Shown here: positions 18,783 to 21,134 of the stretch, one piece after another
Layout of the letters: the number at the start of each line of letters is the position of its first letter
How positions within the stretch are numbered: the stretch's first letter is position 1
Source: an uncultured Chlorobiota bacterium
GTDB taxonomy: Bacteria > Bacteroidota > Ignavibacteria > UBA10030 > UBA6906
Assembly (NCBI GenBank): GCA_900696645.1
Contig: CAADGV010000003.1
Coordinates: forward strand, 1-21,134
DNA: 21,134 nucleotides
Reading direction: 5' to 3'
Made by a program: the position numbers and the translations under genes
Notes under the pieces: model-generated
Databases searched by the model: none
What the model was told of the DNA's origin: nothing
Seen by the model: only the letters and a program-made list of their open reading frames with translations

Positions 18783-18844
18783 GTGCGGTGAGATGGCGCG
18801 CCGAGCGACGATGCAGAGGAAATTCTTCGGGAGGGGAGCAGCCT

Positions 18845-18871
18845 CGCCATTCGCCATTCGCCATTCGCCAT
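18845..18871. repeat. CGCCATT heptamer tandem repeat
   Basis: Three exact copies of CGCCATT (18845-18865) plus a partial fourth (CGCCAT, 18866-18871) stand in tandem about 30 bp before the lipoprotein start. Such arrays can change copy number by slippage. Confidence 0.85.
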
Positions 18872-18900: not shown

Positions 18901-19119
18901 ATGAAGAATCTGCGTGCATTCATTCTCTGTTTCTTTCCAATAATGTTAACCGGACTTGCTGCCGAAGGGTGTAAGAAAGAACCGCCGGTAGTCCCCGAGC
19001 CGACACTCTCGCTCACGGCCGTTGACGCCAGTTGCACCGAAGCCTGGCTGCGCATACGGAGTGTAGAAGTCCCCGCCACCGTCCGCCTTGTTCAAGTCAC
19101 ACCGACTTCACGAACTTGA
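18901..19119 (+). CDS. Short lipoprotein, apparently the truncated N terminus of a larger family
   Basis: The predicted protein has 72 aa. The ATG at 18901 has a strong GGAGGTGA just upstream; the in-frame ATG at 18889 would place the start on top of that site. A basic N terminus (MKNLR) and hydrophobic core (AFILCFFPIMLTGLAAEG) lead to Cys followed by KKEPPVVPEP, a convincing lipoprotein signal. The mature part begins LSLTAVDASCTEAWLRIRS...ATVRLVQ, which looks like the first strands of a fibronectin-III-like domain typical of much longer FCB-group lipoproteins. It stops after about 20 more residues, so it is probably a remnant. The stop codon is followed immediately by the ribosome site of the repeated leader element. 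Confidence 0.6.
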   Translation: MKNLRAFILCFFPIMLTGLAAEGCKKEPPVVPEPTLSLTAVDASCTEAWLRIRSVEVPATVRLVQVTPTSRT

Positions 19120-19196
19120 AAAGGAGGTGATGTCTATGTGCATGCAATAACTGTGCTGGTAATACAGTGGTGGCCGTACAACCCCCGACGGATTGA
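19119..19196 (+). repeat. Repeated leader element, copy 1
   Basis: The element opens with AAAAGGAGGTGAT (19119-19131), complementary over about 12 nt to the 16S rRNA 3' tail. After an 8-nt spacing from GGAGG comes a four-codon mini-ORF, ATG TGC ATG CAA TAA (19136-19150). A hairpin follows, with ACTGTG (19150-19155) and TACAGT (19163-19168) around the loop CTGGTAA. It ends with the shared motif CGACGGATTGA (19186-19196). The same order of parts occurs at 20248-20348. It stands between a lipoprotein stop codon and the next lipoprotein gene. A GTG at 19138 is in frame with that gene, so part of the element might alternatively be coding. Confidence 0.7.
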
Positions 19197-19233
19197 GTCA
19201 TTGCGAAACGATAAGCCAAAGAAGGAAAATACC

Positions 19234-20243
19234 ATAAAACGCCGAGTAATTTGCGTCTTACTGATTTTGCTTACAAGCCAGCTCTCGTGCAAAAAGGATG
19301 GTGGAACAAACGACGGTGACAATCAGAAAATCAACCCTAACATTGTGCTCGTGAAATCGTGCTGCGATGATCCATTTATTGGCGGTGACTATAGAATGGG
19401 TATTGGGGTTGATAATCTATTGTATTGCATTTCTCCCGGTCGGCGTATCAAGATCAGTTCTAGTTCCATGGTTCTGGAGGATACTCTCCTGTTATTCCTC
19501 GGAAGATACGGGTTCATATCAGGCCACCGTAGCCATACCTTCATGGTTATACGCTCAAACTACCCCGATGTATCCTCTGGGCAATTGCTCGAATTGGAAA
19601 CACAAACCTTCAACTTGCGCTTGCTGCGTGACAGTGCCTACAATATCTCAAGCGCTACGTATCTGCCTAATGAAAACCGATGCATCTACTACAGCTATGG
19701 CGAACCATCCAGGCAGATTCTTCCAGGCTACTACACCCTTGACCTCTCGACTTTGCAGGATAATTTGCTTTTCCAATACATCTCCGAGATTGGCCCTGCG
19801 GAAGTGGTCAATGGTTTTGATGTTAGCCCCGATGGCACAAAACTGTTGTTTCCTGTCAATCGGGCAGCCGAACCGCCGCTGAATTGTGGAATATGCATTT
19901 GCAACGGGAGTGCGAGAGACTCTCAACGTGAGTTTTGATCGCCAGTTGCTCTGGCTTCGTTATCATCCGTCAGGAGGTCAAATATTGTATTCCAACTATC
20001 CGCGTGGTGCCGGAGGATTTACTGTTGGAACAGACAGTGAGATTGGTGTGATAGAGCGAGCGGCCCCTTCAAAGAGAATTCTGGACGTGAATACAAACCC
20101 CGGTTGGATGTCTGTCAGCGTGTTTCCCAACTGGTTTCCCGATGGCAAGCATATCGTGTACGGGAGCGCACCGGGTCCGACACGTGAGCCACTGAGAGCA
20201 AAAAGGATTTTACTCGCTGTATATTTTGCGTGATGTGAACTGA
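19234..20243 (+). pseudogene. PD40/TolB-propeller lipoprotein, frameshifted and without ATG
   Basis: By alignment with the related gene at 20393, the start should be at 19234, where the codon is ATA instead of ATG although a GAAGGA ribosome site is in place. The signal KRRVICVLLILLTSQLSC then runs into KKDGGTNDGD, a lipoprotein signal with Lys/Asp after the cysteine. The body has WD40-like PD40 motifs (VNGFDVSPDGTKLLFPV and NWFPDGKHIVYGS), as in TolB-type propellers. The frame breaks at 19882-19883: removing one A joins PPL to IVEYAFATGVRETL and continues to 20233. A second shift in the A5 run at 20200-20204 would restore an ending LYILRDVN with TGA at 20241. Without repair, the first frame ends at 19938. 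A GTG start at 19138 in frame is an alternative. Confidence 0.7.
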
Positions 20244-20247
20244 AACT

Positions 20248-20348
20248 GGAAGGAGGTGATCCCCATGTACATGCCATAGCAAAACCGCCACTGTGCTGGT
20301 AACACAGCGGCGGCTGTACCACCCAGACAATCGCCTCCGACGGATTGA
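20248..20348 (+). repeat. Repeated leader element, copy 2
   Basis: AAGGAGGTGATCC (20250-20262) matches the complement of the 16S 3' tail over 13 nt. With 8 nt from GGAGG comes the mini-ORF ATG TAC ATG CCA TAG (20265-20279). The hairpin is stronger than in copy 1: CCGCC-A-CTGTG (20285-20295) pairs with CACAG-C-GGCGG (20303-20313) around the same loop CTGGTAA, with one A-C mismatch. CGACGGATTGA closes the element at 20338-20348. It begins just after TGA 20241-20243, the likely original stop of the preceding lipoprotein, and ends 45 bp before the next lipoprotein ATG. Confidence 0.7.
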
Positions 20349-20392
20349 CGATGAACGGCTTTGCCAAAGAAAACTGAGATGGAGAAACAGAC

Positions 20393-21040
20393 ATGAATCG
20401 AATCAATTTATTCATAGTGTTCTTTGCTGCGCTATTACCGTTGTCTTGCAAAGACTGCGGGACGGATAGTGGCGATAATGGCAATTCAATCAATCAAACA
20501 ATTCAACGCATTCGATATTGTTGCACCGATTTTGGAGGAGGTAGCTTCAGGATGGGCGTGTGGTATTCTGATAAGATTTTCTATGTTGTGCCCGCACGAT
20601 TACTTCGCTTGGATAGCAGCTTCAATCTAGTTGAAGATTCACTCATTCTGCGTGAGCCATATCTCTTTGTCTGTCGAAATATCAGCGGGACAAAACTACT
20701 GATGATCAAATCACAGTATACTGATGTCTCGCTTGGTAGACTCTGCGAGTTGAACCTCCAATCCCTTCAAACCCTAACCCTTAGGGATAGTTCGTACAAT
20801 GTCTCAAGCGCGATTTATCTGCCTGGACAAAACGCATGCGTGTACTATAGCTATGGAAGTCCTGCCTTCAATCGCGTTGCTGGCTATTATGTACTCGACC
20901 TCACCACGCTCGAAGCCAGCCTTCTTTTTCAATATGCGTCGGAGATTGGACCCTTCGAAGTTGTTAACGGATTTGATATCAGCCCCGATGGAACAAGGCT
21001 GTTGTATCCTGTTCCGCTTCAGTTGAAAATGGACTCCTGA
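20393..21040 (+). CDS. PD40/TolB-propeller-like lipoprotein, C-terminally shortened
   Basis: The protein has 215 aa. GGAG lies 8 nt before the ATG. The signal NLFIVFFAALLPLSC gives a lipoprotein cysteine followed by KDCGTDSGDNG. The mature part is related along its whole length to the broken gene upstream: shared blocks are SSYNVSSAIYLPGQN, ACVYYSYGSP, GYYVLDLTTLEASLLFQYAS and EIGPFEVVNGFDISPDG. The last contains a PD40 (WD40-like) repeat motif. After TRLLYPV it ends within nine residues, whereas the upstream relative continues for about 110 more residues with another PD40 motif. So this copy probably lacks part of its propeller. It may still be secreted and anchored; substrate or partner is unknown. 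Confidence 0.75.
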   Translation: MNRINLFIVFFAALLPLSCKDCGTDSGDNGNSINQTIQRIRYCCTDFGGGSFRMGVWYSDKIFYVVPARLLRLDSSFNLVEDSLILREPYLFVCRNISGTKLLMIKSQYTDVSLGRLCELNLQSLQTLTLRDSSYNVSSAIYLPGQNACVYYSYGSPAFNRVAGYYVLDLTTLEASLLFQYASEIGPFEVVNGFDISPDGTRLLYPVPLQLKMDS

Positions 21041-21083
21041 AAGGGTAGAATATAGGAAACTCACAACCAGAAGGAGCCACGTT

Positions 21084-21134
21084 ATGGAACGCAACGTCAT
21101 CACCGTTCAGACCAAAGCCGAGATTCTCCGGGAG
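21084..21134 (+). CDS. Start of an unidentified gene, cut by the window edge
   Basis: ATG at 21084 has AAGGAG (21071-21076) 7 nt upstream and the frame stays open to the edge: MERNVITVQTKAEILRE. It begins 43 bp after the shortened lipoprotein gene. Seventeen residues are too few to assign a family. Confidence 0.5.
   Translation, partial: MERNVITVQTKAEILRE

Follow-up and report, generated by a model that had tools for sequence, protein, structure and literature searches.

The window, the whole stretch of DNA that was analysed (21,134 bases), is a contig in its full length within a 4.2 Mb genome, and it carries two matching segments, E1 and E2, among genes of beta-propeller lipoproteins (Table 1). 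When the copies were compared by blastn over the whole 4.2 Mb genome, E1 and E2 matched each other with an E value of 2.6e-6 and no third copy equally close to them was found, and their duplication is beyond chance. The two segments start 1129 nt apart, are homologous over 64-72 nt and contain the same loop, CTGGTAA. E2 is the 3' trailer of lipoprotein 1, of which a 350-aa intact homologue with the C-terminus ...LYILRDVN* is present in a genome of the same genus (G001). The sequence-only reading had described E1 and E2 as a duplicated leader composed of a strong Shine-Dalgarno (SD) match, a four-codon mini-ORF and a hairpin, placed before each lipoprotein gene. When we re-read both segments directly, all sequence features named for them were present; the lipoprotein genes downstream of each copy are also there, but neither of them is intact. 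The apparent insertion sequence that interrupts lipoprotein 2 occupies positions 21038-21134 with an ORF starting MERNVITVQTKAEILRE..., and the contig end falls inside it. In two genomes, tandem 7-mers (TCGCCAT / TCGCCAC) are found ahead of several paralogous genes for propeller lipoproteins (window 18844-18871; L045 near 7000; L064).

Table 1. Features of the window at and around the two matching segments.
Feature	Position	Strand	Remarks
Truncated member of the 'TAVDASCTEAWL' propeller-lipoprotein family	18901-19119	+	ends at the start of E1
E1	19119-19197	-	probable truncated copy of a minus-strand RNA gene, plus a plus-strand SD
Anti-SD match, 12 nt, AAAGGAGGTGAT	19120-19131	+	in E1
Mini-ORF MCMQ*, ATGTGCATGCAATAA	19136-19150	+	in E1; not conserved in the family
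H1 remnant	19150-19168	-	in E1; ACTGTG CTGGTAA TACAGT
CGACGGATTGA	19186-19196		in E1
Lipoprotein 1	19240-20243	+	PD40-like beta-propeller by the look of its repeats; frameshifted, without ATG; true stop TGA 20241-20243
E2	20248-20349	-	probable terminator (3') half of a minus-strand RNA gene, plus a plus-strand SD
Anti-SD match, 13 nt, AAGGAGGTGATCC	20250-20262	+	in E2; 6 nt after the stop of lipoprotein 1
Mini-ORF MYMP*, ATGTACATGCCATAG	20265-20279	+	in E2; not conserved in the family
TTTTG	20284-20280	-	directly after H1 of E2
H1 hairpin	20285-20313	-	stem of 11 bp and loop of 7 nt; predicted to be the intrinsic terminator of the minus-strand RNA; A.C mismatch on plus, G.U on minus
Remnant of 3' arm and inner segment	20323-20348	-	plus-strand sequence CCAGACAATCGCC...CGACGGATTGA, homologous to CTCAAACAAACGACCCCGACGGATTGA of the intact copy g2
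CGACGGATTGA	20338-20348		in E2
Lipoprotein 2	20393-21037	+	interrupted at about 21037 by an apparent insertion sequence

The hairpin, H1, is complete in E2; in E1 an 11-nt gap has removed the 5' half of the GC stem, which corrects the sequence-only description. On the minus strand every position of the H1 stem in E2 pairs, with a single G.U besides the T.G/T-A of the loop itself. An A.C or C.A mismatch that the stems of E2 and its relatives have on the plus strand reads as G.U on the minus strand. When folding was compared with that of shuffled sequences, E2 and its intact relatives gave z values of -2.5 to -4.1 on the minus strand and of +0.8 to -2.0, little better than the shuffles, on the plus strand, and E1 gave no fold on either strand. 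Gene 3' flanks were also searched for hairpins without regard to strand; the tallies, transcribed by hand from the output, were 44 A.C versus 2 G.T on the plus strand of the family hairpins (22 members versus 0), and 22 A.C versus 25 G.T on that of background hairpins. The hairpin had been placed on the plus strand, and these mismatches show that the conserved structure is that of the minus strand. Double (compensatory) changes occurred in 11 of the 12 pairs of H1, and 95.6% of the cells were paired compared with 67% in shuffles; such pairing percentages are inflated, since the seeds of our final covariance model (R3) were chosen partly by a visible hairpin and the 5' arms partly by complementarity, a bias that is weaker for the promoter, strand-asymmetry and non-seed tests. 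On the minus strand, most members have a U-rich tract after H1 (TTTTTTTTA in G022, TTTTATTTTT in G054, TTTTG in E2), and H1, with a stem of 12-13 bp in the family, has the form of an intrinsic terminator, a GC-rich hairpin followed by a U-run on the same strand.

In 98 genomes of the order, a protein search, rather than a search for the RNA, had gathered 68 genes of the propeller family, whose 3' flanks we then read. About two dozen of these flanks shared one order of parts: the stop codon, an A-rich stretch, H1, 5-10 nt, GCAAACA, 50-100 nt, TGTTTGC and the next gene. The RNA predicted on the minus strand is about 90-160 nt long and consists of a two-box promoter, a GCAAACA start, an internal hairpin, TGTTTGC, 5-10 nt, the terminator and the U-run. 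The closing arms paired at 0.90 against 0.75 when shuffled, and they occur in covarying types (GCAAAC/GTTTGC, GAAAAC/GTTTTC and GATAAAC/GTTTATC). A -10 box (TANNNT) 5-8 nt before +1 was found in 27 of 37 members against 7.1 expected, a count reached by none of 2000 shuffles, and in 11 of 17 non-seed members against 3.4 expected. Of those 27, 17 have a -33-like box (TTTG, TTGA or ATTG) upstream of the -10 box at a distance of 16-21 nt, against 4.8 expected (none of 2000 shuffles had as many), and the distance peaks at 19-20 nt; we take this spacing to agree with the -33/-7 promoter of Bacteroidota. The copy g2 of G001 is a complete gene with the promoter TTGGGA-N18-TATATT, and G047 and G048 are further genomes with intact members. 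As judged from sequence, the family thus has the makings of an independent small RNA gene with its own promoter, which is missing in E1 and E2. Three tests, namely the mismatch asymmetry, the -10 box and the -33-like box, assign the predicted RNA to the minus strand, and we consider that these loci very probably form a family of minus-strand RNA genes.

A minus-strand intrinsic terminator or insulator, which would only block antisense transcription into the propeller gene and yield no discrete RNA, would also account for the GC stem and U-run that nearly all members carry on the minus strand, and the weak model matches do look like ordinary terminators. Compared with ordinary intrinsic terminators, which share the GC stem and the U-run, the family has in addition a conserved inner stem, a loop-closing G-C pair, a fixed closing stem and a promoter. 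In most members there are promoter boxes at fixed distance and a covarying closing stem 50-110 nt upstream, and the GCAAACA start is conserved, which makes a terminator alone improbable.

Members of the family were found well beyond the genus. A model built from four copies retrieved two diverged members right after the stops of intact propeller genes ending in ...GRR*, one of them from another genus, and a minus-strand model of six sequences reached beyond the family, to a member in G076 of a second family (E 6.6e-8) and to one behind a propeller gene in a third. Since MAFFT misplaces the closing arm of full-length RNAs, R3 was limited to the 3' arm and H1. E2 is itself a seed of R3 and matched it on the minus strand with an E value of 3.0e-8; R3 is a minus-strand model, and the strand bias among its own matches was not counted as evidence. 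At E <= 1e-3, R3 found members in 27 of the 98 genomes of the order, including 21 non-seed loci. On 395 genomes of the phylum it brought in convincing members from further families of the class, most of them in the same context; a match in G269 is a probable member at phylum distance, and four other weak matches among these genomes resemble chance. Matches above E 0.003 were mostly like ordinary terminators. The genome of the window contains five members (E <= 0.006), each opposite a propeller gene. The sequence-only reading had called for a covariance search of relatives, with lipoprotein neighbours and covarying base pairs as its marks: the search finds further copies, which refutes their absence, the copies adjoin lipoprotein genes, and the covariation bears out a real structured element. 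An exact hairpin pattern gave two matches outside the group among 85k species genomes, of which that in Rheinheimera is otherwise unrelated. Apparent matches of 25-29 nt in G008 and G018 were set aside, since neither the hairpin nor the other parts of the element accompany them. At one locus (L207, G054:C29:94500-98500) a tandem pair of elements encloses a short duplicate of the C-terminal codons of the propeller gene.

The predicted RNA lies after the stop of beta-propeller lipoprotein genes and is convergent with them. In G001 two copies, g1 and g2, flank one full-length lipoprotein gene, the only one of that genome, and g2 lies behind it and ahead of the gene of an unrelated 1442-aa T9SS-sorted protein, from which we conclude that the element belongs to the preceding gene. 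Propeller HMM matches stand just upstream of 8 of the 21 non-seed R3 loci (E <= 1.8e-8), and several more upstream genes have a similar C-terminus. About half of the non-seed R3 matches have no propeller homologue upstream that the HMM search could detect, and some propeller genes, such as the lipoprotein homologues in G053 and G026, are without the element. The idea of a leader before each lipoprotein fails on this arrangement, in which the element trails the preceding gene. The next plus-strand gene usually encodes a secreted and often T9SS-sorted protein, with Por_Secre_tail in two of these genes and a subtilase in G076. Such downstream genes were seen at L159 3498-5081, L045 8826-13154, L082 5271-8603 and L212 1662 onward, a subtilase among them, and one gene downstream of an element has an HEYGH zinc motif. 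It is possible that the downstream secreted protein and the propeller lipoprotein form a functional pair.

The plus strand has a signal of its own. The gap between GGAGG and ATG is 8 nt in both E1 and E2, and GGAGG lies between the stop codon and H1 in 20 of 58 members compared with 1.5 in shuffles, a count that misses some members through a misassigned stop and includes a few GGAGG that are codons of ...GRR*. In many cases a start codon comes next, and the ORF varies by locus (MNAR, MCQRA, MYDMA, MTNQK, MK, or longer) or is absent, as in g2 and others. The strong SD thus recurs just before the hairpin, but the four-codon mini-ORF once paired with it is not a conserved part of the element. Six loci have a tiny ORF of the RSPP/S or KSPP type with drifting third positions (MSIHDRSPPNK, MATHERSPSNK, MISERSPPKK, MSTTRSPPL, MKNNISNHSRSPP* and MEKSPPENEQQ*), a motif reminiscent of the RAPP arrest motifs. 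Tiny ORFs of this type right behind a propeller stop were noted at G036:C22, G041:C48, G047:C52, G002:C172, G036:C125 and G052:C166. Apart from this small subset, we found no conserved leader ORF on the sense strand of the kind that a translational leader or attenuator has. A type I toxin-antitoxin system, with a small hydrophobic toxin ORF opposite an antisense RNA, was also considered and dropped, as the tiny ORFs differ between loci and, on visual inspection, do not look hydrophobic. In the STAB-SD of cryIIIA mRNA, a strong SD at the mRNA 5' end does not serve an ordinary ORF; it is a possible analogue of the plus-strand SD, although the latter lies between genes and not at the 5' end of an mRNA.

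A plus-strand translational leader, in which the strong SD captures ribosomes, the mini-ORF is translated up to the hairpin and the downstream lipoprotein is controlled, would explain the enrichment of the SD, the RSPP-type ORFs and the start codon 5-8 nt past the SD in several members, including the phylum-level relative G269 (AAGGAGGTGATGCTTATGAAGTGA). However, the mini-ORF varies in length, sequence and even start codon or is missing, GGAGG is absent from over half of the members, folding of the hairpin is poorer on the plus strand, a full RNA gene normally lies between the element and the next start codon, and the element trails its associated gene. A leader is therefore unlikely in our view, and that interpretation as a whole is partly supported: the recurrence of the SD is why we reject it only in part, and this SD is a real feature that the minus-strand RNA alone leaves unexplained.

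E1 and E2 differ from intact members by their truncation. E1 is without the 5' half of the GC stem and without the 5' arm and the promoter of the RNA. E2 lacks a -10 box where one is expected, its promoter and 5' arm are missing, and its arm pairing was no better than that of shuffles, with a score below theirs. Both copies are cut at CGACGGATTGA, where the internal hairpin has its base; the cut in g1, at CGACGGA, is within a few bases of it. From this shared truncation point, we infer that E1 and E2 are relics from a tandem duplication of the lipoprotein gene; without promoter, they are probably silent. What looked like the leader of each lipoprotein is thus the trailer of the previous one, and since the copies are truncated, their exact anatomy is misleading. 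Elsewhere in the genome of the window (L154, G000:C43:77000-80500) there is an orthologue of the G001:C7 propeller gene, where homology to the element stops at the H1 loop. A mobile cassette, with the lipoprotein unit bracketed by E1 and E2, was dropped after intact genes with the element had been found, and the truncations remain odd.

The breakpoints could also mark a site that works as DNA, where a bottom-strand hairpin would serve recombination or the exchange of cassettes (attC-like, IS200/IS605-like or REP-like), since they fall at hairpins in E1, E2 and g1 and inside the H1 loop in G000:C43, and the upstream genes beside the element are truncated in G000 and G001. Such a site is very unlikely: by direct reading there is no attC core (GTTRRRY/RYYYAAC), the closing arms being GCAAAC/GTTTGC, there are no cassette arrays, the exact hairpin pattern has no copy among viral contigs, and the promoter and the U-run would have no role. 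The degraded gene neighbourhood of the two copies might suggest chance similarity or the decayed start of an ordinary protein-coding gene, but this has almost no probability in view of the covariation, the members in more than 25 genomes in the model search and the indels that break every frame between the copies.

Based on these observations, we suggest that E1 and E2 are probably truncated copies of a multicopy small RNA gene of the minus strand that were kept after the tandem duplication of the lipoprotein gene. In intact members, RNA polymerase would start at the two-box promoter inside the leader of the next gene, and the transcript would comprise the 5' strand GCAAACAnnnn, the internal hairpin, the closing strand nnnnTGTTTGC, 5-10 nt, and H1 with its U-run. 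Transcription would end some tens of nt before it reaches the stop codon of the plus-strand gene upstream, which usually encodes a beta-propeller lipoprotein. While comparison of the sequences establishes the strand, the predicted terminator, closing stem and promoter, the convergence with propeller genes and the truncation of the window copies, that the predicted RNA is made is what we infer from them. The RNA may be a cis-antisense RNA whose target is the intercistronic region of the propeller and secreted-protein genes, a role to which we give slightly less than even chances. It could pair with read-through mRNA and lead to RNase III cleavage, or act by transcriptional interference, and the expression of the propeller and of the secreted protein would thereby be set apart. 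More doubtful is a cooperation of both strands, in which the minus-strand RNA and the SD with its tiny ORF, RSPP-type at some loci, would form a translation-gated antisense switch between the lipoprotein and its secreted T9SS partner.

Several antisense RNAs are known from Bacteroidota. The DonS family of Bacteroides consists of cis-antisense RNAs of 78-128 nt with their own promoter at the susC homologues of PULs (PMC7366714). Like DonS, the predicted RNAs are short, multicopy, opposite surface-protein genes and equipped with a promoter of their own, here a predicted one, and the phylum is probably the same, as the T9SS sorting domains suggest. Unlike DonS, which is divergent from susC and a demonstrated repressor, they are convergent with propeller lipoprotein genes and are putative regulators, and the divergent arrangement opposite a surface transporter gene was not found. 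FopS and GibS of Bacteroides thetaiotaomicron are paralogous intergenic/antisense sRNAs with a sigma-AB-type promoter and a 3' terminator hairpin (PMC11697453, PMC7366714). They are aimed at outer-membrane proteins, and our family has the same plan of promoter and 3' terminator hairpin, as predicted, but the 5' seed of FopS is single-stranded whereas the 5' end is here paired with the 3' arm. FopS has been deposited in Rfam according to its authors (PMC11697453). A covariance search of Rfam gave no match to the family (E <= 2 and E <= 5), in a copy of the database that may not include FopS. In Porphyromonas gingivalis, asSuGR is likewise an antisense RNA in a surface locus of Bacteroidota, encoded at an inverted repeat within a surface-structure locus (PMC8757827); it differs from the present family in its length of 550 nt, its single locus and its sequence. 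We suggest that the family fits the general plan of the Bacteroidota antisense RNAs DonS and FopS, and its most likely role would be like theirs, that of a cis-antisense RNA for the propeller and secreted-protein gene pair.

The pair of window copies illustrates that decayed copies can be mistaken for a leader device if it is the opposite strand that functions. The predicted 5' and 3' ends of the RNA are exact in many genomes. If our reading is true, this would be a structured RNA family absent from Rfam, present in at least one order, with convincing copies in the class and perhaps beyond. A translation-gated antisense switch, if true, would be a multicopy regulatory module of the class without a described counterpart. 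For a group with little described RNA biology, the family would add a regulatory layer tied to paralogous surface proteins.
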